Shown one piece after another: positions 3,218-25,670 of a stretch of 38,194 nucleotides of DNA. How positions within the stretch are numbered: position 1 is the stretch's first letter; the number at the start of each line of letters is the position of its first letter. This DNA comes from a virus. A program made the position numbers and the translations under genes. The notes beneath the pieces are model-generated. The model was given only the letters and a program-made list of their open reading frames with translations, made no database searches and was not told where the DNA came from. Where the stretch lies: the IMG/VR virus record IMGVR_UViG_3300027851_000070, positions 1 through 38,194 of that record; one strand, written 5' to 3'.

Positions 3218-3922
3218 ATGCAAGAGAAAGAAGTCATCCTCGGCCGTGATGGCAAGCCGATGTACGAAGTGATCGAAAGCAAGCACCATCGCGATACCTT
3301 CCAGTTCGTACCGGTCTATGGCAGTCTGCCGTTGCTGCGTGTAGGTTTCCTGTCTCCGGTGCCACCGCGTCACCTGGGTGATCCCAAATACATCCACGAC
3401 AGCCGTCCGATCTGCTGGCCACTGTTCCATCCTTACTTCGTAGTGCGTCAGTCCGCCGATGGCAACATGTTGATGGCCTACGTGGAATCGGTCGACGACA
3501 TCAAGACCTTCTGGCCGGAAGCGACTGAAATCACTGTCTTCGAAGAAGGCGTGACCAAATACATGTTCAACGCCGACTTCCAGCCGCCATCCTGGCTGGC
3601 TGAAGTACAGTCCCCGGACTTCGTGGTCAAGCCACCTGTCATCGGTGCTTTCCGCCTGATCAACACTGAAACCGAAGAAGTCCTCTATGGTTACAGTGAT
3701 GACGTCGAGTATGCAGTGCAGCTGCAAAGTCACAAGCTCATGTACGGCGTCCATGAGGACAAAGAGTTCCAGGACAACCTGGTCAACTACGACAGCCTCA
3801 GTCCTATTATCCATCCGACCCCGACTCTGGCTGCGGCTGAGAAACTGGCCCGTGATCTTCAAGAATTCAATGAAGACAAAGGCGAACTCCCAACCACCCT
3901 CTATATCGGTGACGACGAATGA
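3218..3922 (+). CDS. Conserved-looking protein of unknown function, 234 aa
   Basis: This acidic 234-residue protein starts at ATG 3218 behind a strong CAGGAGAAACACC ribosome site, 14 bases after the previous stop. Codon use is strongly biased toward the common codons also used by phuZ and chmA, which suggests high expression. It is rich in aromatic and strand-forming segments (FQFVPVYGSLPLLRVGFL near residues 27-44) and ends in an acidic tail (LYIGDDE). No nuclease, polymerase or protease motif is visible. Its stop overlaps the next gene by four bases (ATGA), so the two are probably translationally coupled. Confidence 0.85.
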   Translation: MQEKEVILGRDGKPMYEVIESKHHRDTFQFVPVYGSLPLLRVGFLSPVPPRHLGDPKYIHDSRPICWPLFHPYFVVRQSADGNMLMAYVESVDDIKTFWPEATEITVFEEGVTKYMFNADFQPPSWLAEVQSPDFVVKPPVIGAFRLINTETEEVLYGYSDDVEYAVQLQSHKLMYGVHEDKEFQDNLVNYDSLSPIIHPTPTLAAAEKLARDLQEFNEDKGELPTTLYIGDDE

Positions 3923-4116
3923 GTCATATTTTCGAATGCGAACAGTGCCAGTGTGCCGATTCCATCTATTCAACACAGCAGACAAGTCCAGGCTACATCT
4001 GTCATCAGTGCAAGCACGGCGAATGGCATAACGAGTTCGCTCGCGAGACCTACGATTTCGATCGTCACGGCCCTGCCCTGAACAAGCCTGACCCGACTGG
4101 CGCCAGCTTCGGCTAA
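3919..4116 (+). CDS. Small zinc-ribbon protein, 65 aa
   Basis: This 65-residue protein has two Cys knuckles (CEQC at 7-10 and CHQC at 29-32) spaced as in a rubredoxin-like or zinc-ribbon fold, so one zinc ion is probably bound. The ATG overlaps the stop of the 3218-3922 gene (ATGA), implying translational coupling and perhaps a shared complex. The C-terminal half is charged and Pro/Gly-rich with no further motif. It could be a small transcription or nucleic-acid-binding accessory protein, but nothing here decides that. A strong terminator follows at 4125-4150. Confidence 0.8.
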   Translation: MSHIFECEQCQCADSIYSTQQTSPGYICHQCKHGEWHNEFARETYDFDRHGPALNKPDPTGASFG

Positions 4117-4124
4117 CCCAATAC

Positions 4125-4150
4125 AGAGAGGAGGGAAATCCCTCCTCTCT
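4125..4150 (+). terminator. Intrinsic terminator
   Basis: A perfect 11-bp stem (AGAGAGGAGGG / CCCTCCTCTCT) with loop AAAT is followed by GGCCTTATTTTTTC. It belongs to the AGAGGAGGG-type terminators that recur across the window. Confidence 0.85.
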
Positions 4151-4176
4151 GGCCTTATTTTTTCAGGTTAAAGAAA

Positions 4177-4587
4177 ATGAACCGCCCCTATTTTGTAGGG
4201 GGAGCTATGGATATCGATTTAAAGGGCCCTACGGTGCTCATATTCGACGTTTCGGACATGATCAGTACCCTAGATGGGGAGGGTGAACTCTCGCCCCTTG
4301 CATGGCAGTATATGATCGAACGCGAACTTGTCGAAAAAGGTAAGCTGACCATTGGAAGTACCGTTGTCAAAAGTCCTTACCTTGCGGAGCAGTATCGCAT
4401 TGTGAAGAGCCTTTTGGAACGCTATCCGTCTAACAACATCGTCGACCAACTTGACCCATCTATCCTTGAGTATCTGTCTCAGTATGTGGTGGAAATCATG
4501 ATGACTAATGAAGTCTTACTGGTCATCAAAAGAAAAGTCATAAGGAGCCATCCGTGCAGGACTATATCTTACCCATCAACACCGTAG
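4177..4587 (+). CDS. Small alpha/beta protein, member of a tandem paralogue array (1)
   Basis: The product is 136 residues from ATG 4177, or 126 from ATG 4207. The later start has a stronger ribosome site (AGGGGGAG), but this lies in the 3' arm of a small hairpin (CCCCTA-TTTTG-TAGGGG, 4185-4201). An N-terminal strand (GPTVLIFDVSDM) leads into amphipathic helices and a closing strand (TNEVLLVIKRK). That plan is shared, with little sequence identity, by most genes up to 8274. The last 34 bases overlap the next gene, whose ribosome site lies inside this one. Function is unknown. Confidence 0.75.
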   Translation: MNRPYFVGGAMDIDLKGPTVLIFDVSDMISTLDGEGELSPLAWQYMIERELVEKGKLTIGSTVVKSPYLAEQYRIVKSLLERYPSNNIVDQLDPSILEYLSQYVVEIMMTNEVLLVIKRKVIRSHPCRTISYPSTP

Positions 4588-5159
4588 TGGATTACGTTCA
4601 CGACATCGTTGATCAACTGCCTGTTGGCCACACATTACCTACCCGTCCACGTGAACGTAACAATCAAGTTACCGTTGCCGCGGCGGCGTTCGTGGAGAAC
4701 TACATCCGTGGTCAACTGCGTCATGTGCGTAAACGCCCTGATGCATTCAAAGAATTTCTTCATGTACTGGGTTACCCGGTCATGGAAATGCGTGCAGCCG
4801 CATTGGATGATTTCTGTGAAGGGTTGGACGATTTCTTCGTTACCCTGACTATCATCTCAGACCCAATCGTCCGACCCTTTATCGAAATGACTGGTACCCG
4901 ACTGATGTTCATTACCCATCGTCCGGGTATGGAAGAGTTGGTGATCGAATTGGGTGACGACTACATGTTGGAAAAATACCGTTTGATTCATGAACGGACT
5001 CGTCTCGTCACTCCGTCCCGCATTCGTGACATTTCGGATCTGGACGGGTTTCAAGAATACTTCGACAACACCATCGGTACAGCGTTTAGCCGAATCAACA
5101 ATCAGGCTGTTCGCGATGAAGTAAAACGCATTGCTATTGAGACCATCCGCCGACAGTGA
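4554..5159 (+). CDS. Alpha-helical protein of unknown function, 201 aa
   Basis: It starts with GTG at 4554 behind a near-perfect ribosome site (AAGGAG, 6-7 bases away), inside the end of the preceding gene. The product is mainly helical (VAAAAFVENYIRGQLRHVRK, ALDDFCEGLDDFF). An N-terminal strand (DYILPINTVVD) and an internal strand pair near residue 118 (GTRLMFITHR) resemble the array pattern of its neighbours, with an extra helical C-terminal segment of about 75 residues. No catalytic motif is visible. The overlap with both neighbours implies one polycistronic message. Confidence 0.8.
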   Translation: MQDYILPINTVVDYVHDIVDQLPVGHTLPTRPRERNNQVTVAAAAFVENYIRGQLRHVRKRPDAFKEFLHVLGYPVMEMRAAALDDFCEGLDDFFVTLTIISDPIVRPFIEMTGTRLMFITHRPGMEELVIELGDDYMLEKYRLIHERTRLVTPSRIRDISDLDGFQEYFDNTIGTAFSRINNQAVRDEVKRIAIETIRRQ

Positions 5160-5166
5160 GGTAACC

Positions 5167-5607
5167 ATGGATCCCGTGCTCGTCTCGACAGACTCGTTGG
5201 AGCAGTCCATCGAAGAAGCACTGACCCGTGAACTCGGGAGTTGCTTCAGCAATATCCCATCTGGTTTAGTAGAGCGTATGACCGACTACTATAACCTCCA
5301 CGGAGCCGAGGGGATGTTGGACGATCTTATCCAGTCCCAGCATTACGAATTGAGGGAATACTCCTCGGCAGAATTTTTCACCCGTCGATTCCTACATCTT
5401 GCAGAATCGCGAATTGATGTCAAGGAATATAGGGTGTTGTTGGAATACCGGGCCACTGAGCAGACCCTCGTTGTGAGGACTCAACGGCGGCCAAAGCAAT
5501 CCCCTGTCCTAGGACTTGCGGAAGCCTATCGTAATTCTCAAGAGCAATGGGATTATCTCCCAGAACGACTAAGACGTGCGCTCGATGATGTCACCGCTTT
5601 GTGGTGA
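5167..5607 (+). CDS. Small alpha/beta protein of the tandem array (2)
   Basis: The ATG at 5167 has GAGGTAACC in front of it; the ribosome site overlaps the previous stop. The 146-residue product begins with the array-type strand (MDPVLVSTDSLEQS) and continues with helices. It then carries the array-type strand pair (RVLLEYRATEQTLVVRTQRR, about residues 86-105) and a 40-residue charged, helical extension. A longer in-frame reading from TTG 5131 has no ribosome site and would overlap the previous gene. Function is unknown. Confidence 0.8.
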   Translation: MDPVLVSTDSLEQSIEEALTRELGSCFSNIPSGLVERMTDYYNLHGAEGMLDDLIQSQHYELREYSSAEFFTRRFLHLAESRIDVKEYRVLLEYRATEQTLVVRTQRRPKQSPVLGLAEAYRNSQEQWDYLPERLRRALDDVTALW

Positions 5608-5674
5608 TGCATACCCTGCCGTAAATCTGCATTAACCAGTTACCAAGATGGTGTTCTGGTACTGGAGGTGAAGC

Positions 5675-6193
5675 GTGTTGTCAACTGGACTACGCTCAAT
5701 CATTTTAAATCTTCCCTACGAGGTGGCTTTCGGTATGTTCGGCGGTAAGTTAGCTGATCATATCGGGGCCACCCCGCTCCTTTATGCCGCCCTAGCTTAT
5801 TTCGTGTTTGATGAGTCTTTCTTCCTGGAAGACTTAGCCGAAAACTACCCAGAGTTAGATTATGAACTATCTGAATGGTTGGAAGCATTTTACTGCGACC
5901 AATACGACCTTATTGAAGAATTAAGGAAGTACTATGCAACGCCTCTCTCGGCAGGATATCCACCGCTTCCTTGGGATCGCGCCCCTGCATCCTACCGACT
6001 CGTCAGTGTCCGATACCTGTCGTCGGATGAGTCTGTCCTCATCGCCGCGTCCGATGATGAAAGTGATCATCAACTTGGAAGCGAGTGGGGACTTCCTCAT
6101 GAACGCCAGTCGTGTACTGGCCGCTACGGGGATGACCTTAGAAGAACTTTTCGAATTTCTGGCCACAGTGGTCTCTGCCATTCGAAAAGATAG
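5675..6193 (+). CDS. Small alpha/beta protein of the tandem array (3), with out-of-family tail
   Basis: It starts at GTG 5675 behind GGAGGTGAAGC. The product has the array N-terminal strand (RSIILNLPYEVA), acidic helices, and the array closing strands (RLVSVRYLSSDESVLIAAS, about residues 107-125). Beyond residue 130 the sequence turns Arg/His/Gly-rich and unlike the family, and the DNA there is also read in another frame by the next gene. The last 40 or so residues are therefore probably read-through of a drifting end after loss of an earlier stop. Function is unknown. Confidence 0.65.
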   Translation: MLSTGLRSIILNLPYEVAFGMFGGKLADHIGATPLLYAALAYFVFDESFFLEDLAENYPELDYELSEWLEAFYCDQYDLIEELRKYYATPLSAGYPPLPWDRAPASYRLVSVRYLSSDESVLIAASDDESDHQLGSEWGLPHERQSCTGRYGDDLRRTFRISGHSGLCHSKR

Positions 6194-6515
6194 TTTTGCT
6201 CCATCGCTACTCGTCAATGGGAGGTTACCAGACCATGAAGGAGTTTCAATCAACTCGCTCGTGTCCTCCATGGCTGAGCAACTCGAGAACGGTACGGTGT
6301 CCTACACCGGAAATGAGGGCTCCTTTAAGCTTCTCTCGGTCGATCAGCTTGATGATTCCGCCCTCATCGAGGTTGTCTCAAGGGAGCCGGCAGGGCGCGG
6401 GAAAACTCCCATTAATCCTGTCCCTATCAGTCGAAACAAACGCGCTGCACGAGGTGCCATCCGAGTTACTCAGGGCGGTCGTGTCATCAGTGATAAGCGG
6501 AGTGATCTGGAATAG
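5934..6515 (+). CDS. Small alpha/beta protein of the tandem array (4), heavily overlapping
   Basis: The ATG at 5934 has AAGGAAG 5-6 bases upstream, inside the previous gene. The array-like part begins at Met41/42 (MKVIINLEASGDF, ATG 6054/6057) and ends with KLLSVDQLDDSALIEVVSRE at about residues 131-150. The first 40 residues and the basic last 40 look like sequence borrowed from neighbouring frames. Either start is possible: 5934 has the ribosome site, 6057 has the family boundary. The 260-base overlap with gene 3 and the long overlap with gene 5 are exceptional here. Function is unknown. Confidence 0.65.
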   Translation: MQRLSRQDIHRFLGIAPLHPTDSSVSDTCRRMSLSSSPRPMMKVIINLEASGDFLMNASRVLAATGMTLEELFEFLATVVSAIRKDSFAPSLLVNGRLPDHEGVSINSLVSSMAEQLENGTVSYTGNEGSFKLLSVDQLDDSALIEVVSREPAGRGKTPINPVPISRNKRAARGAIRVTQGGRVISDKRSDLE

Positions 6516-6753
6516 ACTATCTTACGAGTATGGCGAAGTCCTCTCGTATTGGATACGTAAAGACAGCAATATCAATGTGCCGAGGGATTTGCTGATGGTC
6601 AAAGTCGATGAGGTCTTTGAAGCCGTCGTGCCGATCTTTACAAACATTGCTAAGGAACTCAGCATCTTTGCGGGTGAGACTCAGTTGATCACAGATCTTC
6701 TGAGATACGACCCCGTCGATGGTTCCATTGTTGTGAGAATTTCAGATGGCTGA
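6352..6753 (+). CDS. Small alpha/beta protein of the tandem array (5), start uncertain
   Basis: The frame is open from TTG 6196, but family-like sequence starts only at KLPLILSLSVETN and ends with DLLRYDPVDGSIVVRISDG just before the stop. I place the start at ATG 6352 (133 residues). TTG 6373 and a GTG near 6451 are also possible, and none has a convincing ribosome site, so coupling to the overlapping upstream gene is likely. The middle is helical (VDEVFEAVVPIFTNIAKELS). The stop overlaps the next start. Confidence 0.6.
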   Translation: MIPPSSRLSQGSRQGAGKLPLILSLSVETNALHEVPSELLRAVVSSVISGVIWNRLSYEYGEVLSYWIRKDSNINVPRDLLMVKVDEVFEAVVPIFTNIAKELSIFAGETQLITDLLRYDPVDGSIVVRISDG

Positions 6754-7102
6754 GAAAACAATCCTTTTTGAGGGAGAGCGGATCCTGAAAATACTCCTGG
6801 CCGATTTGGGTCAGGTCATGGATCACTCCTACCACGTCGACGAACTGTTCACGTTTTATCAGGACTGGTGTCGTCGTGGTGAGACTTTCGTTGATAAGTA
6901 TGTCCATCAGATCTACCCAATAATTCCGGGTTCTACCCCGGAGGAGCAGGAAGACGCTGAGGATAATCAGACAGCATTGCGAAATGCTATGATAAACCTA
7001 TACTGCGCAATGGATCAACTCATCAAAGGTGTCGACAGGCGGCGTGTTGTTCATGCAGCCCATAGCCACGATGAGCAAGTAGTATCGATTACTCTGCGCT
7101 AA
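6746..7102 (+). CDS. Small alpha/beta protein of the tandem array (6), 118 aa
   Basis: The ATG at 6746 lies 8 bases inside the end of the preceding gene, so translation is probably coupled; the ribosome site (GTGAGA) is weak. The product has the array plan: strand KTILFEGERILK, helices with aromatic and acidic residues (YHVDELFTFYQDW), an acidic linker (STPEEQEDAEDN), a helix, and closing strands RVVHAAHSHDEQVVSITLR at the very end. There is no catalytic motif. It is one of the most compact members and so helps define the module as roughly 110-120 residues. Confidence 0.75.
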   Translation: MAEKTILFEGERILKILLADLGQVMDHSYHVDELFTFYQDWCRRGETFVDKYVHQIYPIIPGSTPEEQEDAEDNQTALRNAMINLYCAMDQLIKGVDRRRVVHAAHSHDEQVVSITLR

Positions 7103-7111
7103 GGCCTACCC

Positions 7112-7411
7112 ATGATTCTCATCAACACTTCCAACGTGTTGGCCGAGATCCTACCTGAACTCATGTTTGAGTACGACCCAGACCTTCCGTTTCAGGAGGC
7201 AGCGTTCACTCAGGCTATGATGGATCGTCTGAATGACCTGTTCATGAAGGCGTTTTACCAAAAGGTGCAGACACCTCATGTTTTTGACAGGGTGATCTTG
7301 GATCGACTCCGCACTGATAAGTTCCTACTGGAATTCTCCACGCGCCGGTGGACCACCGTCAAGGTGGTTGATACCGACGGAACGTACATCCTAATTTTCG
7401 AGGAAACGTAA
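7112..7411 (+). CDS. Small alpha/beta protein of the tandem array (7), 99 aa
   Basis: The ATG at 7112 follows TAAGGCCTACCC, 9 bases after the previous stop. At 99 residues it is the shortest array member. It opens with MILINTSNVLAEILPEL and has helical segments (FTQAMMDRLNDLFMKAFYQK). It closes with TTVKVVDTDGTYILIFEE, the clearest example of the shared C-terminal strand pair with a D-x-D/G turn. No known domain is recognised. It is separated by 4 bases from the next gene. Confidence 0.8.
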   Translation: MILINTSNVLAEILPELMFEYDPDLPFQEAAFTQAMMDRLNDLFMKAFYQKVQTPHVFDRVILDRLRTDKFLLEFSTRRWTTVKVVDTDGTYILIFEET

Positions 7412-7415
7412 CGCC

Positions 7416-7832
7416 ATGAGCATTGCGGATTACAAAGACAGCATCGTCAGATTCAACACCAAAGCTCCTGGTGTTCTGGGTGCCGCACGCGACAACGTCA
7501 AGGTAGTAGCAGTGCTCGATTACGACACTGCTGCCCTCTTGGAAGATGTACGTGCCAAGCACGCCCGTGTTCGCAACTATATTCCCAGTCTGCCTCAGGC
7601 AGCAGGTGCGTACAATTACGTTCGCATCCTGTACAGCAACGGTGAATACGAGATCCTTGGTGTCCCATGGATCGACGAGAACACCATCGAGGTCATTTCC
7701 TCTCGTAAACTGGTCATCACCATTGAGGATGTCAGTGACTCCACTGAAACTCTCGCACGACAGGCGCTTCTTCAAAATGGTATTTCGAACTTCACATTTG
7801 AGGTCGTCGGCACTACCGCGACCCCGACGTAA
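7416..7832 (+). CDS. Protein of unknown function, 138 aa
   Basis: It starts at ATG 7416 directly after the previous stop, with GAGGAAACG as ribosome site. Unlike its neighbours it is strand-rich through the middle (VKVVAVLDYD, YNYVRILYSNGEYEILGVPW, NTIEVISSRKLVITIEDV) with a helical segment near the end. A small beta-barrel or sandwich is plausible. It does not show the array N-terminal/C-terminal signature clearly. Codon use is more biased than in the array genes, suggesting higher expression. No function can be assigned. Confidence 0.8.
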   Translation: MSIADYKDSIVRFNTKAPGVLGAARDNVKVVAVLDYDTAALLEDVRAKHARVRNYIPSLPQAAGAYNYVRILYSNGEYEILGVPWIDENTIEVISSRKLVITIEDVSDSTETLARQALLQNGISNFTFEVVGTTATPT

Positions 7833-7853
7833 GCGGGAAGGGTTTTCCTTTGA

Positions 7854-7877
7854 ATCAGGTGTCGAAAACCACCTGAT
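7854..7877 (+). promoter_or_regulatory. Hairpin just upstream of a start codon
   Basis: A perfect 8-bp inverted repeat ATCAGGTG / CACCTGAT with an 8-base loop ends one base before ATG 7879. It could bridge a distant GGGAAGGG ribosome site (7835-7842) to the start, as known for T4 gene 38, or it could restrict initiation. The role is inferred from spacing. Confidence 0.5.
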
Positions 7878-7878
7878 C

Positions 7879-8274
7879 ATGGATTTTGACGACAACCTCA
7901 TGACGCAATACGGTGCGTTCCTCGATAAGCTCTACTCGATCACCGATCGATACGAGATGACCGATGAAGACTCCGCGGCACTCTTCTCCATCTGCAACTT
8001 GTCGATGATGGTTACTAACATGATCCATGAGGACATGGGAGAAACCCGTTATACAGAATCAATCATGGATGAGCTTTACTCCGAGCTTCCTAAGGATGTT
8101 GTTGATGACGTGATAGTCGAACTTTGCGATTACCACAACACTGACAACACCCGACCTAAGGTTGTTGGTGACCTGATCACCATCCTTAAGACAAAGAAAG
8201 GGATGTGTCTACAATCCGTTACCCCGATGAGAGAAGAAGACACCATGATTTTCACTTTCGTCAACCTCGAATGA
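7879..8274 (+). CDS. Small alpha/beta protein of the tandem array (8), 131 aa
   Basis: The only good start is ATG 7879, 46 bases after the previous stop, and it has no ribosome site at normal spacing. A GGGAAGGG element lies at 7835-7842, with a perfect 8-bp hairpin (7854-7877) between it and the ATG. Folding would bring the two within about 12 bases. The protein has the array plan: MDFDDNLMTQYGAFLDKLYS, acidic helices, and closing CLQSVTPMREEDTMIFTFVN, strikingly like array genes 3 and 4. An intrinsic terminator follows at 8299-8318, ending the cluster. Function is unknown. Confidence 0.75.
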   Translation: MDFDDNLMTQYGAFLDKLYSITDRYEMTDEDSAALFSICNLSMMVTNMIHEDMGETRYTESIMDELYSELPKDVVDDVIVELCDYHNTDNTRPKVVGDLITILKTKKGMCLQSVTPMREEDTMIFTFVNLE

Positions 8275-8298
8275 GGCTTAGTCAATAAAAACTAAAAG

Positions 8299-8318
8299 GG
8301 ACTCTCTTATGAGAGTCC
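8299..8318 (+). terminator. Intrinsic terminator after the small-gene array
   Basis: GGACTCTC / GAGAGTCC with loop TTAT is followed by TAATTATTTTTTC. It separates the array from the DNA polymerase gene. Confidence 0.85.
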
Positions 8319-8357
8319 TAATTATTTTTTCTTTGTCTAGAATTCAAGGTCTGATCC

Positions 8358-10655
8358 ATGGAAAATCCGTTTGTACTTCCCAAGGACCAATACGTCCGCG
8401 ATCTCGATCTGATGAAAGGCTTCTTTGCCCAAAACTCACTCTATCTTCAGCGCATGACTGGTCAGACTGAAGAGCGCGTGATGCAGTTCCTTAAGAAAGA
8501 ACTCAGTCGGGGTGGTCGTTTCCCCTTGACAGACCCGAACATGATGGTACTGCGTAAAGACAGTCCCGGTAACCGTGTTAAGGATGAGATAACTCTCCTT
8601 AATTACGTGAAGAGTGTCAGTGATACTCAGCGCATTCTGTCGCCTTCGATGGTCTGCTACGAAAACCCGAAGGTGTTGAAATCTCCGTCTGCTAAATTCG
8701 TGGAAGCGGGCATTGCCGGCCGTAAGAAATCCAAGAACGAGATGTTTGTCGCCAAGGTGAACGGCGATAAAGTCCTTGAGAAGATCAAGGATGCCGAACA
8801 GAACGCCAAGAAGATCGGGATTAACTCCCTTTCTGGGATGCACGGTTTCTCCGGCAATATTCTCTTCGTGAAATCTGGTCACTCCAGCCTGACGTCCATG
8901 TGTCGTTCAGCCACGGGCTACGGTAACGCCAACAACGAGCGTCTCTTGGCGGGTTCTCGCCATTATTCGACGCCAACGATTGCTCTGGCTAACATGCTAG
9001 CGCTGATCACCAGTCAACCGCACGACGAATTTGAAGCAGCCATGCAGAAATGCGGCTTTGAATATCCAACGGTAGAGCAGACTGCCGAATGCATCAAGCG
9101 TAGTACTGATCTTTACTGGCGTAACGCTCGTAAGTTCCAACAGATCGTGGACTTTATTGTCCGACTGAGCCCTCTGGAACGTGCGATCGTCGTCTATACC
9201 GGCGACCTTTACCATATCGCTCGGTACAACGATCAGTTTGTTCGGACATTCATGGATAAAGTGGTTAAGTACGACCCTTCCAAGGATGATCTTAAGATCG
9301 AAGACCCGTTTGCCCTGCTCACCGGTAAGTCAATTGACGACGATACCAAGATGCTGGCGACTTACCTCAACGCAGACATCACCCGCGGTGAGAACTTCGA
9401 CTCCATGAAAGAGAGTGGGATGATCGATGTCCTGGAAAAGGTGGCTAAAACAGCACTGAATGTCCAGAACGTCATGCAGGAGTACTTCACGTTCATTCGT
9501 GTATTCCTGACCCCTGTTCTTCTGTGTCCGACTGTGGCCAACATCAAAGGTATCCTGCGCCGTGTGGTACTGGCGTCCGATACCGACTCCACCATCTTCA
9601 CTACTCAGGACTGGGTGACCTGGTACACCGGTAATGACAACCGGACTAAAGAAGGTGATGGTATCTGGTACACCACGACCTACATTGCTTGCCAGTGTAT
9701 CGTGCATGTCCTGGCCAAACTCTCTGCCAACATGGGCGTGATTCAAGAAGACCTGCATCGCCTGACCATGAAAAACGAGTATGCGTTCCCGGTGTTCACA
9801 TTGACCAGCCGTGCGAAACATTACTACGCGTTCATGAGCTGTCGTGAAGGTAACGTCTTCGATGAATACGAAATGGAGATCAAAGGCGTAGCCCTGCGTT
9901 CATCCACCGTGCCACCGGCAGTCATTAAGGCCGCCAAGGCTTTGATGAAGGAAGTCATGCATCGTGCTGACCAGAACCGCCAGTTCACACTGGAGGAGTT
10001 GTATCTGATCGTCTGGCGTCACGAGCAGGATATCTACGAGTCCATCTCGCGTGGTGAGCACAAGTACCTGAAGTCAGCTCAGATTCAGGAATCGTACAAC
10101 AACATGAACAAGGACAACCCATTCCAGGATAAGACGAACTATCGTCATTATCACATGTGGGAGACCATCTTCGCTCCGAAGTACGGTCATGTTGAATCTC
10201 CACCCTTCAGCGTCATTAAGGTTCCGCTTGCGATCAATAACAAGACGGATACCCAGACGTGGTTCGCTGAGGCTGAGAAAGTCGATCCCGAGTTTGCAGA
10301 ACGTCTGAGGGACTACCATGTCAAGAGCGGTCGCGATCAGATCCCAACCCTGATGCTTCCGTTGTCCATCTTGTCGGGTATCGGCATGCCCAAAGAAGTC
10401 ATGCCGATGATTGATATCCGTCGTCTGACCTACGAGATCCTGGAATCGTTTTACATGATCCTGGAATCTCTAGGTGTGTTCCAGGTGGACAGTAACTACG
10501 TCCGCTTGATCAGTGACATCTACACCCCGAGTGAGGAGGTCAACCTGATCCCTCTTGCGACAGATGCCAACTCTGCGCTTGAGGGAGATGATGATCCTGA
10601 CTTCTTCGTCGATGATGAGGAAGAGGACGACGACTTTGGCATGAGTTGGGACTGA
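8358..10655 (+). CDS. Family-B DNA polymerase core (probable split polymerase)
   Basis: This 765-residue protein carries the palm/fingers motifs of family-B DNA polymerases. Motif B is KKIGINSLSGMHG (151-163), motif C is ASDTDS (406-411), and a downstream SRAKHYYAF (484-492) stands where the K-K-R-Y motif is expected. A degenerate motif A may be DTQRILSPSMV (89-99). The N-terminal 3'-5' exonuclease domain is absent, so proofreading, if present, must come from another gene. About 240 residues lie between motifs B and C, far more than usual. The C-terminus is extremely acidic (FFVDDEEEDDDFGMSWD), which could mimic DNA or dock partners. It probably replicates the genome inside the phage nucleus. 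The ATG at 8358 has only a weak AAGG ribosome site. Confidence 0.82.
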   Translation: MENPFVLPKDQYVRDLDLMKGFFAQNSLYLQRMTGQTEERVMQFLKKELSRGGRFPLTDPNMMVLRKDSPGNRVKDEITLLNYVKSVSDTQRILSPSMVCYENPKVLKSPSAKFVEAGIAGRKKSKNEMFVAKVNGDKVLEKIKDAEQNAKKIGINSLSGMHGFSGNILFVKSGHSSLTSMCRSATGYGNANNERLLAGSRHYSTPTIALANMLALITSQPHDEFEAAMQKCGFEYPTVEQTAECIKRSTDLYWRNARKFQQIVDFIVRLSPLERAIVVYTGDLYHIARYNDQFVRTFMDKVVKYDPSKDDLKIEDPFALLTGKSIDDDTKMLATYLNADITRGENFDSMKESGMIDVLEKVAKTALNVQNVMQEYFTFIRVFLTPVLLCPTVANIKGILRRVVLASDTDSTIFTTQDWVTWYTGNDNRTKEGDGIWYTTTYIACQCIVHVLAKLSANMGVIQEDLHRLTMKNEYAFPVFTLTSRAKHYYAFMSCREGNVFDEYEMEIKGVALRSSTVPPAVIKAAKALMKEVMHRADQNRQFTLEELYLIVWRHEQDIYESISRGEHKYLKSAQIQESYNNMNKDNPFQDKTNYRHYHMWETIFAPKYGHVESPPFSVIKVPLAINNKTDTQTWFAEAEKVDPEFAERLRDYHVKSGRDQIPTLMLPLSILSGIGMPKEVMPMIDIRRLTYEILESFYMILESLGVFQVDSNYVRLISDIYTPSEEVNLIPLATDANSALEGDDDPDFFVDDEEEDDDFGMSWD

Positions 10656-12136: not shown

Positions 12137-14059
12137 ATGGCAGTCAACAACGGCGACAACGAAACCATCGAAACCGGTGCTCAAGGCCAAGAGCGTCGCG
12201 AACAAGCCATCCCGCCGCGCCAAGAAGCCCGTCGTGAGCAATCCCAGCAATCCTCGCAAGTCGGTCTGATGGACCTGAACCGCTTCCTCGGCGGTCCGAT
12301 CACCCGTCGCGATTCCAGCGAAGTCCTGATCGCTGCCGTCAAAGCAGCCAAGTTTGCGCTGAGCCCCGACCGCATCGTGGCCTCCAGCGGCCAGTACGAC
12401 GTCTCCAAGATCGAAGTCCTGGGCCTGGAAGCTTCCGAGCACCAAGTCTCCATCTCCAGCGTCATCGTGGCACTGCCGGTCGAAACCAATAACGGCCTGT
12501 CCGTTCTGGTGAGCATGATCGCCCTGGCTGGTTCCATGAACGACGCCGCTCAAGTGCGCAACTTCGAGCAGAACGGACGCAGCTACCCGATCCCGGTTCT
12601 GGCTGGTGACTACATCACCGAAGGCTACCTGTCTCTGGTTGACGAGATCGTCAAGAAGAAGTTCGAGCAATCCCGTCGCTCCGTCGAGGTCGTTCGCACT
12701 GGCTGGAACATCGCTCTGCCGACCGTTCACTGGTCCGAGCCGGAGTCCACCGAAGTTCGCAACGTCATGTTCTACACCATGGCTTCGCTGACCTCGGCAT
12801 TCAACGAAATGTTCCGCAACGACGCCTACTTCAACCTGGACTGGTTCAACAAGCAGGCCACCCTGGAAATCAACATCGACGTCAGCGGTCGCGAAAGCTA
12901 CACTGCCGACGGTCAACCGCGTCGTAACGACATCGGCGTGACCGTTGCTGGTGTGCAGCGTCGCAGCGACAACCAGCACGTGACCATGCCGCTGTCCACC
13001 ATCGGTGGCCACGTGGAACTGGTGTACGTCCAGCCGGAAACCACTGGCATCTCCCGTCGCTCCATCGAGCGCGATCAGCCGATCTTCCAGCCGGTGTACG
13101 TCATCAACCGCATGGACTCCAGCAACAACGTGATCTCGCCTGAGCTGCTGCTCCTGGCCCTGGCCGGTGCTTCGGTACTGACCAAGGACGAGCGCTGGGC
13201 CCAGACCTTCCTGCCGACCGACCTGGCGCGTGGTGAAACCGACTACCGCGACACCGGTCTGCTGAACGTTCTGCGTCAGACTGGCGACAACACTCCGATC
13301 GTGTTCGACGGCCGTAGCAGCCTCGACACCGACAAGTGGGCCGACTACTTCTTCTCCCTCGTGGACGAGAAGCTGGTCTTCGCGATCGAATTGGAGGAGG
13401 GGGGTGAGAACAGCTGGATCACCGGTCTGCTCTCCGACGCTGCCAACGACAACACCCCGGACGCCGATGCCGTACGTCGCCTGTACTCGTACGCCGATCG
13501 CCTGACCATGGGTCACTTCACCCGTCGTGCCAAGGAACTGGGCGTTGAGTCCCCGCTGATGTCCAGCGGCGCTCGGTACCTGACCGGTACCTGGATCGAC
13601 GAGAACGGCAAGACCCGTGACCTGCGTGACTGGGACATGCTGCGTTGGCTCGCAGTGAACCCGAACGACAACGGCGACAGCGCACTGCGTTATCAGGACG
13701 TGGTCAACCGCACCGATCTGGATGTGGAAATCCGCATCTCCGAGCAGTACGAGCAACTCGCCGGTGCCCTGACTCCGTCGGGCCTGAAGTTCGGTCGCTA
13801 CGTCGAACTGGCGTACATCAACCCTGACTTCATCAAGGCTCTGGCCCTGGCCGTGACTGACTGCAAAGTCAACGTCGACGCGTCCAATGCCAGCTACAGC
13901 TTCGGCAACCGTCGCCTGCGTGGTAACAGCCGCGTACGTGACTTCGCCGGTGGTGACCTGTCGGGTGGCATGGCTTCCGGCCGTCGCACCATGGGTGATG
14001 GCAGCCGCGGCTACCGCGGTGGCGTGGGCAATGGCTTCGGCCATGGCGCAGGCTTCTAA
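12137..14059 (+). CDS. chmA: Probable chimallin, phage nucleus shell protein
   Basis: This 640-residue protein is the probable ChmA, which builds the single-layer protein shell of the phage nucleus. Support comes from context. It lies directly upstream of the RNA polymerase beta' N-half gene, as phiKZ gp54 precedes gp55, and its length is close to 201phi2-1 gp105 (about 630 aa). Codon use is the most biased in the window, so expression is very high, and it has its own leader and terminator. The N-terminus (residues 1-45) is Gln/Glu/Arg-rich and looks disordered. A folded core runs from about LMDLNRFLGG (48) to residue 590. The tail is Gly/Arg-rich and ends GNGFGHGAGF, unusual and perhaps an inter-subunit or partner-binding segment. 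The name rests on synteny, length and codon bias, not on a motif. Confidence 0.72.
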   Translation: MAVNNGDNETIETGAQGQERREQAIPPRQEARREQSQQSSQVGLMDLNRFLGGPITRRDSSEVLIAAVKAAKFALSPDRIVASSGQYDVSKIEVLGLEASEHQVSISSVIVALPVETNNGLSVLVSMIALAGSMNDAAQVRNFEQNGRSYPIPVLAGDYITEGYLSLVDEIVKKKFEQSRRSVEVVRTGWNIALPTVHWSEPESTEVRNVMFYTMASLTSAFNEMFRNDAYFNLDWFNKQATLEINIDVSGRESYTADGQPRRNDIGVTVAGVQRRSDNQHVTMPLSTIGGHVELVYVQPETTGISRRSIERDQPIFQPVYVINRMDSSNNVISPELLLLALAGASVLTKDERWAQTFLPTDLARGETDYRDTGLLNVLRQTGDNTPIVFDGRSSLDTDKWADYFFSLVDEKLVFAIELEEGGENSWITGLLSDAANDNTPDADAVRRLYSYADRLTMGHFTRRAKELGVESPLMSSGARYLTGTWIDENGKTRDLRDWDMLRWLAVNPNDNGDSALRYQDVVNRTDLDVEIRISEQYEQLAGALTPSGLKFGRYVELAYINPDFIKALALAVTDCKVNVDASNASYSFGNRRLRGNSRVRDFAGGDLSGGMASGRRTMGDGSRGYRGGVGNGFGHGAGF

Positions 14060-14143: not shown

Positions 14144-16999
14144 ATGAAGCAACGCAAAGGCGTCTACCTTCGAGTGATTAGCTTCGACGATAAGTTCCAT
14201 CGTCTGCAGCACGAATCAATCATGATGAACGACTTCAACATCGACCTCGAGTCTGATCGTGCCAAGCTGAACAACCTGATTTATGCTTCGCTGGACGGTG
14301 ATTCCCTGAGCAGCAGTGCTTCCTGTGACTGCGGCCACATCACCGGGATGGACAATTACGGCATCCGCTGTAACGAATGTCTGTCTGTGGTCATGCCGAT
14401 CACCGAGAAGCCCATGGAATCACTGCTCTGGCTACGTGTACCTGCAGGTATCCATGCGTTCATCAACCTAACGGTGTGGCGGATTCTGTCTAAGAACCTG
14501 ACCCACTCCAACTTCAACATCCTGGAATACCTTTGTAACCCTCGTTACAAGGCTCCGAACGATCTGCCTGTAGACAAGATGCGGAAACTGGAGCGTCTGG
14601 GTATCGTGCGGGGATACAACAACTTCATCGAGAATTACGAAGCCATCATCACCGGTCTGTCCAAGGCTGGTCTGGTAGGTCCGTCGGCCTCGGCCCGTCG
14701 TCGTAAGAAGATCCTGCGTTTCTTGCAGGAGAACTTCGACCGTACGTTCTCGCAGTACCTCCCGTTCCCGACACGGTTGAGCTTCTTGAAAGAGAGTTCG
14801 AATAACCGCATCGTGGCCGACCCGAAGATGATTGAAGCTGTTAACGCGGCCCACATCCTCATCGGTATCGATAATCGCGAATCGTCGGAAAGTCAACCGC
14901 CTCTGGCACCTGCCATTAAAGAGGCCCGTATGGTCAGTGCTCTTCAGAGCTTTGACACGTACTACCGCACGTTTGAAGCGGATGTGATCTTCCGTAAACC
15001 AGGAGTGGCCCGGAAGCAGATCTACGGTACTCGCCCGTTCTGGGGGTTCCGTTCGGTCATCACGTCGCGTCAGGAACCGCATCGCCAAGATGCGTTGGAG
15101 ATGCCATGGTCGTTGAGTGTACTGTTGTTCAAAGTGCACTTGCAGAACAAGCTACTTCGTCAGGACTACACCCCTAACGAAATGCAGGCCATGATTTACG
15201 AGAATACCTTGCGCTGGCATCCTGAGTTGGATCGCCTGTTCAAGGAACTGCTCGCAGAATCTCCCAATGGCACCATCCCCACGATCTTCGGTCGCAACCC
15301 GACCCTGACCCGTGGTTCGGTGGGTTTCAATCAGATCGACGCTATCAAGGCCGATCCGACTGACAACACCATCTCGATGTCGCCGTTGAACCTCATCGAC
15401 AAAAACGCCGACTTCGACGGTAAACTAATTGCTGTCGTTAAACCCTTTTAACTGCTGGAAACCCCTGAGAGCCATCTGAACTACAACGTGACTGGAAACG
15501 GTGAGCGTGAATGTTTGAAAATCAGATGGATTGGGCAATCAGCATCCAAGACTCTAAATACTGTCGAGACGACAGGATATGAGTAAGGTTCATCGACTAT
15601 TCCGTAAGGAAGTAGACCCCAAGTGGGGAGCGCAAGCTTTAAATCGAAATGGAGGGCACTTACTCAGGTAGGTGAAGATATAGTCAGTCGTTATGGGAAA
15701 CCATAGCGTTCGATGTAAACTGGACATTTACATCGGTCGGAAGTAACGATTCCGACGAACACCACTGGCACGAAGTAAATAAGGATCGTCATGTTAAAAG
15801 AAATCCCGAATACCTGCGGGTTTCTCGCGTCTAACACAGGCGAGATATACGATCCAGCAGGTAATCTCAGAAACCAGTATATAAACGGAGATGGATACCG
15901 AACAGCCAGTGTCTTGACAGAGACGGGCTGGGTTACATTCGGCGTCCATCGCCTGGTAGCCCTGGCGTTCATTGAACCACCATGTGATCCGATGACCTTG
16001 ACGGTGAACCATAAAGACAGTGATAAGTCGAACAACGACGAGTCGAATCTTGAATGGGTTACCTCCAAGTTGAATAATGTCCATCATGCTCTCAGTAAAC
16101 CACCCACCAGACCCATGGTACTCGTGTGGAAAGATAATGGGGGTCAGAGTGTCTTGGCGGAGTCTCTTGATACGGCCGGTGCAATGGCAGGCTGCTCTGG
16201 TGAAGAAGTATGGGCGACAATCGTTAACGGTGGATCCGTTAATGGGTATCACTTCAGCCACCAACGATCTAAGGACCCATTGCCAGAACACCTCAGGAAA
16301 ACAACCATACCTCGCCGCGATCGCCTCGGCATGATTCCCGAGAGTCCTACCAAGCTTCGTGATATTCATACTGGTGAGATTACAATCTACCCGACTATGA
16401 CGGAGGCGGCCAATGCTCACGGTGTCCTCACTGGGCATCTTTCAGCAGTCGCAAGAACTCCAAGGTTGTCATTGTTTAAGGGCCGATATCAAGTGACCTA
16501 TGCTGACCGAGAGTTCCGGCATTACGACTACAAGGTACTTCTCGATGCTTCCAAGTGGGGTATCGCCAGGCCGGTTGCCGTCAGTAGAGTCAACTGGGAT
16601 GAAATCACACATTACCCTAGTGCGAGTGAGTTTATTGCTCGTAACGATCTAAGCAAGAAAGCAATCACCGTACGGTTAAAGCGCGACGGTGATCTTGGGA
16701 AGGTAAGTGAGTACGAAGGATACAGGTTTGCATATGCGGACTTGAATTTGTTAACCATTCCGACTGAAGAGTCCAGTCTTTAATCGGAAATGTGCTAGCG
16801 GTGTGATTATACGGATGCCCTTTGGGGTGAACTGCCGATCGACAATAAGAACGCCAAGGTCATGGGTCGTCTCGATCCTGTCACTGGTGTGATGGACCTC
16901 AACAAACCGTTCACAGTGTCTCGTAATACGACGTTGCCGGCGCCGTTGATCGCGTCATTGACGAATTGGATCATTGAAGGAGATCAGGTATCTTCGTGA
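14144..16999 (+). CDS. Non-virion RNA polymerase beta' N-terminal half, split by an intron (join 14144-15421, 16805-16999)
   Basis: Spliced, this encodes 490 residues matching the N-terminal half of multisubunit RNA polymerase beta'. A zinc ribbon (C61, C63, C76, C79) corresponds to the beta' N-terminal zinc site. The region RKQIYGTRPFWGFRSVI matches the segment preceding the active centre, and exon 1 ends in NADFDG (421-426). Exon 2 supplies the third catalytic Asp, giving NADFDGD, the absolutely conserved Mg-binding loop. It then continues YTDALWGELP and MDLNKPFTVSRNTTLPAP. Unspliced, the frame ends after nine more residues and would lack the third Asp. In phiKZ the equivalent is, as I recall, gp55. 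It acts with the beta C-half and beta' C-half proteins encoded further right. The ATG at 14144 follows AGGATCAGCA. Confidence 0.9.
15422..16804 (+). ncRNA. Group I self-splicing intron in the beta' gene
   Basis: This 1383-base insertion separates two in-frame exons. Group I core elements are visible in order: P (AACTGCTGGAAA, 15450), Q (CAATCAGCATCCAAG, 15536), R (GTTCATCGACTA, 15588-15599) and S (AAGATATAGTC, 15675-15685). GACTA of R pairs with TAGTC of S as P7. The internal guide GCTGTCG (15431-15437) pairs with exon end CGACGGT, giving the expected U.G pair at the 5' splice site, and TAATT (15426-15430) can form P10 with GATTA of exon 2. The HNH gene lies after P7, in the peripheral P9 region. 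Oddly, the in-frame 3' junction leaves U, not G, as last intron base; shifting both ends by one base gives a terminal G but loses U.G. Confidence 0.88.
15791..16783 (+). CDS. Intron-encoded HNH homing endonuclease
   Basis: The ATG at 15791 has TAAGGATCGTC before it. The 330-residue product starts with a NUMOD4-like segment (FLASNTGEIYD, 11-21). It continues with an HNH_3-type core: VHRLVALAFI (52-61) supplies the first His, and VNHKDSDKSNNDESNLEW (72-89) the Asn-His and downstream Asn residues. Three related C-terminal modules follow (about 105-155, 185-235, 250-315). Each resembles NUMOD1/helix-turn-helix units (for example IYPTMTEAANAHGV and HYPSASEFIARNDL) that would read the target site. 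It probably spreads the intron into intron-less copies of the beta' catalytic-loop sequence. The frame appears intact, so activity is likely. Confidence 0.88.
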   Translation: MLKEIPNTCGFLASNTGEIYDPAGNLRNQYINGDGYRTASVLTETGWVTFGVHRLVALAFIEPPCDPMTLTVNHKDSDKSNNDESNLEWVTSKLNNVHHALSKPPTRPMVLVWKDNGGQSVLAESLDTAGAMAGCSGEEVWATIVNGGSVNGYHFSHQRSKDPLPEHLRKTTIPRRDRLGMIPESPTKLRDIHTGEITIYPTMTEAANAHGVLTGHLSAVARTPRLSLFKGRYQVTYADREFRHYDYKVLLDASKWGIARPVAVSRVNWDEITHYPSASEFIARNDLSKKAITVRLKRDGDLGKVSEYEGYRFAYADLNLLTIPTEESSL

Positions 17000-22623: not shown

Positions 22624-24177
22624 ATGCAAATCAACATCCATGAGAAATCTGGAAAGGGGATCACATCACTGCGCATTGACCATGCCGGTGAGACCATCTA
22701 TATCTCGGCAGGTAGCTACCATTCGGCAGCGATTGTCAACAGAGATGAAATGTTCAAGGAGACCAACGAATTCATCGCCACCCTGAGTCGTGATACTCAG
22801 GATGCACTATGGGAGATTTATAAGCAGCTGCGCGACTATTTCTCCTCCGACGATCTTCGTTCCTCGTACTTTGTACGTGGCGAGATTGAAAAGCGTGTCA
22901 TCGAGATCTACGAGTTGGTGAAATACCCTCAACTGTTCGATTGGATCGGTCGGGCTCGACTGCTGATCCCGTCTGATGTGAACGAGAAGTTCGAGGAGTT
23001 CAGTGACCGCGGTCGCAATTACCGTAACCGTACGTATATCCGTTCCGATTACCTGGAACTTCAGGCCATGACGCTGGGCCTGCGCTTCATTGTTCCGGTA
23101 TGGGGACTTTATGTCCAAACGGTAGCGGGCGTGAACGGTAACGCGTATAAGGAATCGGAAGCAGTAAAACTGCTCGAGAAAGCCGGTGTGGATAAATGGC
23201 CTCCATTCATCCGCATGTACGAGTACATCGAAGCGTCTGTGGAAAAAGAGACCACCATGACCATGGTCATGGCTGGCCTGTCGTCCGAGGAAGTACCGCG
23301 ACTGCTGATGTCGATGGCGTTGGTTCGCAAGATCTCCATCGGTCCGCTGAACACCAACTCTGATCGCGACAGTAATGTCCGCAGTCTCTTCAACTACGTG
23401 AAGTTCACCCACCTGCGCATGGACAGTCGCTTCCAGACTGTTACCGGCATTGTGACGGCCAAGCGTTCCCGTGGCATCGATAAGAACGACGAGGATAACT
23501 CGTCGGTCTGGGATGACCTCAGTCATACCTCCGAGATCACCGAAGGCGACCGTCAGCTGTTCGAAGTATACTCCCGCAACGTGGAGAACATCGTCCGCCA
23601 GACCAAGTGTGACGTCCCGATCTCTCGAGTCCAGCAATGCATCAGCATCTGTTCTCGTGACGAACTGCGACAGATCCATCTGTTCCAGAAGGCAATCATC
23701 TTCTGGGTCATCCGTGCGATCACACCCGAAGCACGCGACATCCTACTCAAGACCACCTTGTTCCGTCTGATGGGTATTACCCAGGCAGTCCTGGATCATT
23801 GGGGTTTCCATGAGTTGGCAGTCCTGGTGGCTGGTGAGTTGTTCGTCAGCGACGAGGGTGAAATGTACATGCCGAGCGAGCCTCGTAACAAGATCACCAA
23901 GCAACAGATGGAGATCTTGGACGCTCAGTATCCGTACTACCGACAAGAGACCAAGCGCCAGGAGCCTGGCAAACGCAGCAACGTCGCCGTCATTGCCATC
24001 GACACAGTAGTAGACGAGATGTCTGGCAAAGCTTGGAAAACACACGCACCTCGAGATATTGTCGAGAAGATCCCGATGCTTCATCAGTTGGGTCACTTCT
24101 ATATCTCGGGCGACATCAAGAGACAGTTGGCTGACATGATCATCCATGTCAACAATATCATCAGTGGAGGCAAGTAA
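22624..24177 (+). CDS. Candidate fifth subunit of the non-virion RNA polymerase (phiKZ gp68-like)
   Basis: This 517-residue protein shows no conserved catalytic motif. It lies between the beta' N-half gene and the beta C-half / beta' C-half pair, is about the length I recall for phiKZ gp68 (roughly 520 aa), and shares the candidate promoter motif with the beta C-half gene. On that basis it is a candidate for the extra, non-conserved RNA polymerase subunit. Features are a strand-rich N-terminal 45 residues, a long helical centre (TNEFIATLSRDTQDALWEIY, VEKETTMTMVMAGLSSEEVP), and a helical C-terminus. ATG 22624 follows AGAGGCTATACCTAG. Its stop overlaps the next start (TAATG), so the two are coupled. 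Existence is certain; the subunit call is inference. Confidence 0.7.
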   Translation: MQINIHEKSGKGITSLRIDHAGETIYISAGSYHSAAIVNRDEMFKETNEFIATLSRDTQDALWEIYKQLRDYFSSDDLRSSYFVRGEIEKRVIEIYELVKYPQLFDWIGRARLLIPSDVNEKFEEFSDRGRNYRNRTYIRSDYLELQAMTLGLRFIVPVWGLYVQTVAGVNGNAYKESEAVKLLEKAGVDKWPPFIRMYEYIEASVEKETTMTMVMAGLSSEEVPRLLMSMALVRKISIGPLNTNSDRDSNVRSLFNYVKFTHLRMDSRFQTVTGIVTAKRSRGIDKNDEDNSSVWDDLSHTSEITEGDRQLFEVYSRNVENIVRQTKCDVPISRVQQCISICSRDELRQIHLFQKAIIFWVIRAITPEARDILLKTTLFRLMGITQAVLDHWGFHELAVLVAGELFVSDEGEMYMPSEPRNKITKQQMEILDAQYPYYRQETKRQEPGKRSNVAVIAIDTVVDEMSGKAWKTHAPRDIVEKIPMLHQLGHFYISGDIKRQLADMIIHVNNIISGGK

Positions 24178-25670
24178 TGATCATCCGTGACATCGTTTTC
24201 CGTGAGCGTCCTGCTTATCAGGACATGTACATTCGTCCGTTTGGTGCTGATGCCACCGGCGATATCATCCGTCGCATGTGTCGTGACACCGAGGAGGGTA
24301 CCAATTTCTCTCCAAGTGCTCTGGCCGGTACTGCTGGCCGTATCATTCGTCCAGTGAGTCAGCACCGAGGTCGCGCTATCATTGCCAACGGTTGGGGTGA
24401 GCGCCGTTTCATGTTCATGATGCGTGTCGAAGTCCGCAAGACCCAGGGTATCTACACCATCCTGGAAATCGTGGGTTCAACCGACCATGCCGATGCGGTG
24501 AACGGTATTCGCGGGATCAAACTGCCTGAGGACATGTGCCTGTATTTCAACTCGATCACCGAGGTGGAACAGGTGTATATCCGTGCACCTGGCCAGGGGC
24601 GTGAAGGCTGGCGCACCCGTATCGGGAGTTCCAACCATCTCATCATTCCTCAGACCATGCCCGATTACTCGCGTGATCGCAGCACGGTCGGTACGGTTAC
24701 CCTGCGTCCGCACGACATCTTCCGTTCCAGCGGGCAAGACGTCATGCAGCGGGCATTCGACCGCAATGCCACCCGTGAGAACTTCGTGGATGGTCGCTTT
24801 GGCTTCGGTGACAGACAACTGAAGATGTCCAGTCGTCTCAACGATTCGTCGACTCGTTACATGAGTCGTTCTGTCTCCGCTCTGGCTACGGCTAAAGAAG
24901 GAACGGAATATGGTAGTGGTTTCGATATCGATCATGACGCTTCCAAGGTCTTGTCCGATGCTCGTTCCCAAGTCCGTGAAAAGTCGTTCAATGCCTGGGA
25001 GCCGCTGGCCATCCTGAGCCGTGATACCAACATCCTGGAGCAGGGTTTCATCACCCTCGGAGAACTCCAGACCATGAACGAGGATTATCCGTGGGATGAA
25101 GTTAAAGTCTTCTTCCTGGATAAGAACGTCCGTGATGTCAGCAACAGTACTGGTTGGGGCGGTAAGGATAACACCACGATCGCTGCGAACATCATTGCTC
25201 GCGGTCTCCCGAGCTACATGACGTTCCACCAGATCGGTGCTATCGAGTTCGAGGCCAATAACCTCGGCTACGGTGGCGAAACGGTTGTCCTGACCAGCAA
25301 TGCCATGTCTCTGTTTGGTGCAGACTACGACGAACGTGCACTTCAGTCTCTCGAACAGCGCTTGATGACTGAGCTGTTTGTTGAAATGCTTCCTGACGAG
25401 GACTGTCGCTTCGATCTGCGGGTACGTGCTGACCTCAACCTCGACATCCACATGACCATCCAGATCGGTGATGAAGAGGAAGGACACTTCACTTTCCCGA
25501 TCTTCTGTGACTCCATGGTGCCTCCGGTGATGTCCAACAATAACGATGACGTGATTGGTGTGGCAGAAACCATCACTCGAATCGTGGACAGCTTCGGTAC
25601 CACCAACAACGAATATCGTGACGAGCCAATCGGCTTGATCGATGTCAACTCCAAACGCGCCAATTTCTAA
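24177..25670 (+). CDS. Protein of unknown function, 497 aa
   Basis: Its ATG overlaps the stop of the preceding gene (TAATG), implying coupled translation. The N-terminal 170 residues are strand-rich (RRFMFMMRVEVRKTQGIYTI). A Ser/Arg-rich central segment follows (LKMSSRLNDSSTRYMSRS, about 220-240), then an alpha/beta C-terminal half with acidic stretches (VEMLPDEDCRFDLRVRADLN). No enzyme motif is recognised. Biased codon use and position among RNA polymerase genes suggest an abundant early/middle protein; a role linked to transcription or the phage nucleus is only contextual. Confidence 0.83.
   Translation: MIIRDIVFRERPAYQDMYIRPFGADATGDIIRRMCRDTEEGTNFSPSALAGTAGRIIRPVSQHRGRAIIANGWGERRFMFMMRVEVRKTQGIYTILEIVGSTDHADAVNGIRGIKLPEDMCLYFNSITEVEQVYIRAPGQGREGWRTRIGSSNHLIIPQTMPDYSRDRSTVGTVTLRPHDIFRSSGQDVMQRAFDRNATRENFVDGRFGFGDRQLKMSSRLNDSSTRYMSRSVSALATAKEGTEYGSGFDIDHDASKVLSDARSQVREKSFNAWEPLAILSRDTNILEQGFITLGELQTMNEDYPWDEVKVFFLDKNVRDVSNSTGWGGKDNTTIAANIIARGLPSYMTFHQIGAIEFEANNLGYGGETVVLTSNAMSLFGADYDERALQSLEQRLMTELFVEMLPDEDCRFDLRVRADLNLDIHMTIQIGDEEEGHFTFPIFCDSMVPPVMSNNNDDVIGVAETITRIVDSFGTTNNEYRDEPIGLIDVNSKRANF

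Follow-up and report, generated by a model that had tools for sequence, protein, structure and literature searches.

Diverged small genes between phuZ and the DNA polymerase of nucleus-forming phages: relationships and a possible role in nuclear import

Nucleus-forming phages select the folded proteins that enter the phage nucleus, and for most of their small genes no function has been assigned. The locus described here lies in a viral contig of 38,194 nucleotides (IMG/VR record IMGVR_UViG_3300027851_000070, referred to as the window in its whole length) whose source is a phiKZ-like jumbo phage. Between the phuZ and DNA polymerase genes of the window, ten plus-strand open reading frames (ORFs), W1 to W10, follow each other at positions 4207 to 8274, overlapping or touching. 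The question is what these genes are and whether they are related. The results point to a lineage-wide array that is at least partly a family of paralogues. We tentatively favor the explanation that the array proteins serve the phage nucleus as partner-specific adaptors, most likely for import cargo.

The array and its occurrence in nucleus-forming phages

The array and its borders comprise the following features:

4124-4151, plus strand: intrinsic terminator with a 12-pair stem, upstream border of the array
4207-4587, plus strand: W1, 126 amino acids (aa), with TVLIFDVSD as the N-terminal strand; the ATG at 4207 is preceded by a strong ribosome-binding site
4554-5159, plus strand: W2, 201 aa, starting with GTG; the best-conserved gene of the array and the phiKZ gp43 orthologue
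5167-5607, plus strand: W3, 146 aa, always directly after W2
5606-5721, plus strand: W3b, remnant of an array gene lost from the window; about 28 codons of the C terminus are left, and a start codon is lacking
5675-6193, plus strand: W4, 172 aa, GTG start, predicted core at residues 1-128 and disordered tail encoded in the overlap
6057-6515, plus strand: W5, 152 aa, start within W4, tail of about 45 aa overlapping W6
6352-6753, plus strand: W6, 133 aa, likely ATG at 6352
6746-7102, plus strand: W7, 118 aa, belonging to family F2, which is multiplied in tandem
7112-7411, plus strand: W8, 99 aa, strands MILINTS and TYILIFEE
7416-7832, plus strand: W9, 138 aa, SH3DP (PF20287)
7879-8274, plus strand: W10, 131 aa, last array gene, net charge -17
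8298-8319, plus strand: intrinsic terminator, downstream border of the array, before the DNA polymerase

Because both border terminators are strong and the sites between them are weak, no better than expected for such scans, W1 to W10 probably form one transcription unit. The first-pass annotation had described about eight tandem small paralogues at this site. Consecutive, overlapping or touching genes do fill 4207 to 8274, and the same array was found in related phages with changes in copy number. The number of ORFs is ten, however, of which W9 is not a family member, and W2 and W3, which the annotation had not quoted, are likely members by profile. One further gene was deleted between 5607 and 5675. 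The segment LILSLSVE had been placed at the very N terminus of the product of ORF 6196-6753; no ATG, GTG or TTG directly precedes it, and with the likely start at the ATG at 6352 it follows about 20 other residues. The closing strand pair is not terminal in W4 and W5, which extend about 45 codons beyond the closing strand and into the next gene.

The overlaps between W4 and W5 and between W5 and W6 are at least 100 bases long. They are also present in a second locus (L025) and are shorter in other relatives, indicating that the long overlaps are a feature of the lineage. The same layout in loci L025 and L004 and in relatives argues against sequencing error as their cause.

Loci for comparison were gathered with the polymerase as the anchor, comprising 80 viral-contig loci and a number of annotated phages. 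All ten array ORFs have counterparts in relatives, and the array was found at the same position in every chimallivirus examined. Upstream of the polymerase in relatives, W2 and W3 are followed by small genes in variable number and then by SH3DP, which precedes the polymerase. The W2 family was detected in 70 loci, W3 in 52, W4 in 34, W7 in 68 and W8 in 24. In phage Asesino, which is reported to lack PhuZ (PMC11724907), the array is kept without PhuZ at the site. Neither the array nor SH3DP is present beside the polymerase in the two outgroups examined, Bacillus phage AR9 and Staphylococcus phage S6. Their polymerases are distantly related to that of the window, and nucleus formation is not known for either. 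The array thus characterizes chimallin-encoding phages. Between the W2-W3 pair and the SH3DP-polymerase pair, tandem duplication enlarges it and deletion shortens it. In two public annotations, array genes differ from our calls: the W4 and W6 calls are missing from Pseudomonas phage pPa_SNUABM_DT01 (L008, 9352-10395), and in FLC9 (L011, 11814-12179) a minus-strand ORF is annotated over a plus-strand family member.

In phiKZ, gp43 to gp48 likewise lie between phuZ and the polymerase, with SH3DP (gp49) at the end. The gp43 protein is the orthologue of W2 (E = 7.8e-25), whereas gp44 to gp48 showed no significant sequence match to the window genes. The six phiKZ proteins fall into six separate PHROGs of unknown function and have nothing in Pfam.

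W9 is the odd member of the array. It matched PF20287 over residues 7 to 123 (E = 3.5e-26; 91.7 bits against a curated Pfam cutoff of 25), and no match to this family above the cutoff was found among the other nine array genes. Pfam and PHROG scans of these nine genes gave nothing. W9 is not a paralogue of the other array genes. The assignment of 7416-7832 to another family by a profile search is, in part, an outcome that the first-pass annotation had named as evidence against its grouping. SH3DP stands at the array end, beside the divergent family B polymerase, in 82 loci.

The deleted gene encodes a protein of 153 to 161 aa and is located between W3 and W4 in 17/17 same-clade loci that cover the site. 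The relic in the window aligned with the intact protein with local scores of 77 and 81, compared with 44 and 35 for the best of 500 shuffles. This indicates that the array can lose members and not only acquire them. The relic overlaps the start of W4, and this overlap may be why its codons survive.

Relationships among the array genes

Tandem paralogy within the W7 family is proven in relatives of the window. Iterative profiles collected 127 genes of this family, with two to four adjacent copies in many phages. Because iteration can drift, the four positions of ten FLC9-like phages were each given a non-iterated profile of their own. Mutual matches among positions 2, 3 and 4 had probabilities of 97.5 to 98.7% (E = 1e-11 to 1e-16), and position 1 matched positions 3 and 4 at 81% and 67%, respectively; reversed pairs reached 2.6% at most. 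Neighboring genes were directly similar, without any profile, in four phages (best E = 1.3e-11; Noxifer, 3.4e-7), which indicates recent duplication, and reversed sequences gave no such pair. In clade-pure profiles, W7 of the window matched positions 2 to 4 at 47% and W7 of another clade at 81%, with a reversed maximum of 6.5%.

W2 and W3 are likely members, as suggested by weaker profile matches. The two matched each other at 53% in the deep families, where the highest null of the test, 27%, came from another pair. W4 matched W2 at 23% in another clade, where the reversed maximum was 6.5%. A match of 25% between families F8 and F16, which are deep and clade-mixed, was discounted, as its reversed control reached 27%. 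W1 had a weak profile match, at 50%, to the first array gene of another clade (F20). For W1, W5, W6, W8 and W10, profile matches to array families were no better than reversed controls; these genes are grouped by plan and position, and their membership is not proven gene by gene. We infer that W1 to W8 and W10 all derive from one ancestral gene.

Predicted structures agree with diverged paralogy. The AlphaFold2 model of W7 (mean predicted local distance difference test score [pLDDT], 95; predicted template modeling score, 0.87) has a strand at residues 4 to 9, helices up to residue 92 and strands at 101 to 107 and 112 to 117. The W4 model, with a pLDDT above 90 in the core, has a strand at 6 to 12, five helices up to residue 86 and strands at 108 to 115 and 120 to 126. 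The order of elements is the same, strand-helices-strand-strand, without sequence similarity; the fold was regarded as the same by the order and spacing of elements in element lists rather than by superposed coordinates. This matching topology supports the view that W7 and W4 are diverged paralogues. The first-pass annotation had read the same plan from the letters, and it stands for the two proteins that were folded. From sequence alone, the plan was only moderately enriched, occurring in 32/82 array genes versus 19/99 other small genes of these phages (P = 0.005), and profiles and folds, rather than the motif, are therefore the basis of the grouping.

In Foldseek searches of predicted viral structures, the named top matches of W7 all came from nucleus-forming phages. 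Matches were placed in arrays by organism and protein length. Four PhiEaH1 matches, of 132, 142, 138 and 123 aa, correspond to four consecutive genes between phuZ and the polymerase. Further matches lie in the equivalent arrays of Psa21 (183 aa) and Ea35-70 (127 and 100 aa). PhiPA3 gp39 (337 aa) is the gp43 homologue within the PhiPA3 array, and an SL2 match of 178 aa (probability, 0.80; E = 0.13) has the length of the gp47 homologue of SL2. Proteins of this kind also headed the W4 list, in which about 10 of the top 50 entries were common to the top 50 of W7. Two W7 matches in Ea35-70 and Desertfox (L094 and L101), of 114 and 136 aa, had no array gene of the same length. The fold may therefore also occur outside the arrays of these genomes, in dispersed members. 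Among PDB structures, no credible relative was listed by fold (best Z, 5.2 for W7, to the helical BID domain, and 2.9 for W4). Sequence searches of the PDB gave only designed helical bundles, which were rejected as a composition effect.

Genome context and other features of the window

The window carries the following context genes:

1625-2668: PhuZ, identified by a family in common with annotated PhuZ
8358-10655, plus strand: divergent family B DNA polymerase
12137-14059, plus strand: ChmA (chimallin), the nuclear shell protein, 61% identical over 637 aa to the DT01 protein annotated gp105/chimallin
24177-25670, plus strand: orthologue of the nuclear import factor PicA/Imp1, matching phiKZ gp69 with E = 5e-38

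These four genes have the same order as in other nucleus-forming phages. Both ChmA and PicA/Imp1 are encoded, which places the window in the Chimalliviridae. The closest annotated relative is DT01, with a polymerase identity of 81%. A megablast search of the array region against phages gave no match.

Between PhuZ and the array, a 65-aa ORF (3919-4116) has two CxxC pairs and is zinc-ribbon-like. It is kept in 44 loci, in some of them as two copies. Upstream of phuZ, a 259-aa ORF (587-1366) resembles HNH/NUMOD homing endonucleases. A group I intron (RF00028, 72 bits) was detected at 15412-15707, directly behind an RNA polymerase beta'-like ORF (14144-15451), and the HNH-type ORF that follows it (15791-16783) is probably the homing endonuclease of the intron. 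In a helicase-like ORF (32627-34783), the Walker A region (TGGGK) continues as ALSVKTPVRIPGGWKLMGQLRVGDEIIARDG, which resembles an intein inserted in the P-loop.

Possible functions of the array proteins

According to the explanation that we favor, the common fold, a strand followed by four or five helices and a closing strand pair, would serve as a scaffold, and each array protein would have a single binding partner, or a few, among the proteins of the phage nucleus. One partner for each paralogue is suggested by the retention of the scaffold despite diverging surfaces and varying numbers. Partner specialization at the phage nucleus, which the first-pass annotation had also mentioned, is still a plausible guess. 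The partners would most likely be cargo for import through the PicA/Imp1 gate. The array would then be a repertoire of cargo adaptors, whose quick divergence would make import selective for the phage's own proteins. Two cargo-specific import factors of phiKZ, Imp2 and Imp4 (Kokontis et al., 2025), are reportedly gp47 and gp48, which would make both of them array genes. The Imp/PIC import factors of phiKZ, from the same phage family, are cargo dependent and species selective, as the array proteins would be. Even PhiKZ and PhiPA3 differ in import selectivity, which depends on the surfaces of folded proteins (PMC11087766), and beyond Imp1/PicA, further import factors act in cargo-dependent combinations (PMC13282480). 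PicA, in contrast to the array proteins, is well conserved, and it is unrelated to them. The diverged paralogues of eukaryotic karyopherin and adaptor repertoires, each with its own cargo, are analogous in role only, with no common fold or sequence. It is possible, if rather doubtful, that the array is a whole superfamily, so far ungrouped, specific to nucleus-forming phages and expanded within one operon, that is the cargo-adaptor counterpart of importin adaptors with an unrelated fold, and that its divergence decides which proteins each phage's nucleus admits.

Several results weigh against the adaptor explanation. The location of SH3DP in the same transcription unit points to the polymerase rather than to import. 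The Foldseek scores beyond the orthologue were weak (E = 0.0035 to 0.1; template modeling score, 0.35 to 0.56). Profile-profile comparison of the window's own shallow families reached 11% at best, with reversed controls close, and the cross-family profile matches of the window genes were mostly at the level of reversed controls. In a single-sequence cross-family scan at E = 0.3, matches were obtained for 10/86 array genes, 7/86 reversed sequences and 1/99 control genes; since the reversed sequences came so close to the array, composition explains much of these matches.

A polymerase-accessory role is the main rival. The array proteins would then be accessory subunits of the replisome, paralogues in a heteromeric assembly with SH3DP and a family B polymerase that lacks an exonuclease and a clamp. 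SH3DP lies within the array unit beside the polymerase in 82/82 loci, and both the array and SH3DP are absent beside the AR9 and S6 polymerases. PF20287 is named "SH3 fold domain associated with phage DNA polymerases"; Iyer et al. proposed that it is a polymerase subunit, and the polymerase has no fused exonuclease or known clamp (PMC7824862). Antisense knockdown of either phiKZ gp49 (SH3DP) or gp50 (polymerase) impairs plaque formation (PMC12571901). However, the number and makeup of array members vary by phage, including the loss of W3b in the window, which would be odd for a fixed complex, and the terminator at 8298-8319 parts the array from the polymerase. The array members also diverge far faster than their neighbors: identity to relatives is 27 to 61% for most array proteins, compared with 59 to 70% for SH3DP and 76 to 81% for the polymerase. 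We regard a replisome role as somewhat unlikely.

We regard it as unlikely that most array genes of the window have no common ancestry and are unrelated small alpha/beta families in a fast-evolving operon, with the W7 family as the only tandem one. The window's cross-family matches, barely above reversed controls, and the weak profile links of W1, W5, W6, W8 and W10 would be expected in that case, and for these five genes the first-pass claim of tandem diverged paralogues is not proven. It would leave unexplained that W7 and W4 have the same predicted topology and common fold-search matches without sequence similarity. The W2-W3 and W4-W2 profile matches also argue against it, as does gene duplication in the array, which was seen directly in four phages.

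The first-pass annotation had suggested, as speculation, a conflict with the host and had described acidic helices and an acidic turn in the proteins. The array proteins are not unusually acidic. The median isoelectric point was 5.0 for 73 array proteins versus 5.2 for 19 neighboring genes, and 7% of the array proteins were below 4.3. Acidic DNA-mimic anti-defense proteins were therefore rejected as a model, as the extreme negative charge expected of them was not found. The dN/dS ratio (nonsynonymous to synonymous substitution rates) of the ten ORFs in close-relative pairs with enough changes was about 0.05 to 0.43, indicating purifying selection and no positive selection on average. No weighty match of array proteins to defense or anti-defense families was found, single weak matches at most. 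An anti-defense or host-takeover cassette of small inhibitors diversified in host conflict is thus quite improbable: the genes are small, fast diverging, tandem and variable in number, as such a cassette would be, but all chimalliviruses carry them at one set position in the conserved replication-nucleus region, W2 and W3 are kept across 70 and 52 loci, and neither acidity, family matches nor average dN/dS fits.

SH3DP and the conserved block were already known. No paper that groups phiKZ gp43 to gp48 was found in the literature searched, which included few subscription journals. Sequence clustering splits such families, as each phiKZ member is in its own PHROG. With the grouping, 6 to 12 "orphan" genes per phage become one testable family with a common plan. 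If the array proteins are adaptors for import cargo, the copy number and divergence of the array are predicted to track the import selectivity of the phage nucleus.

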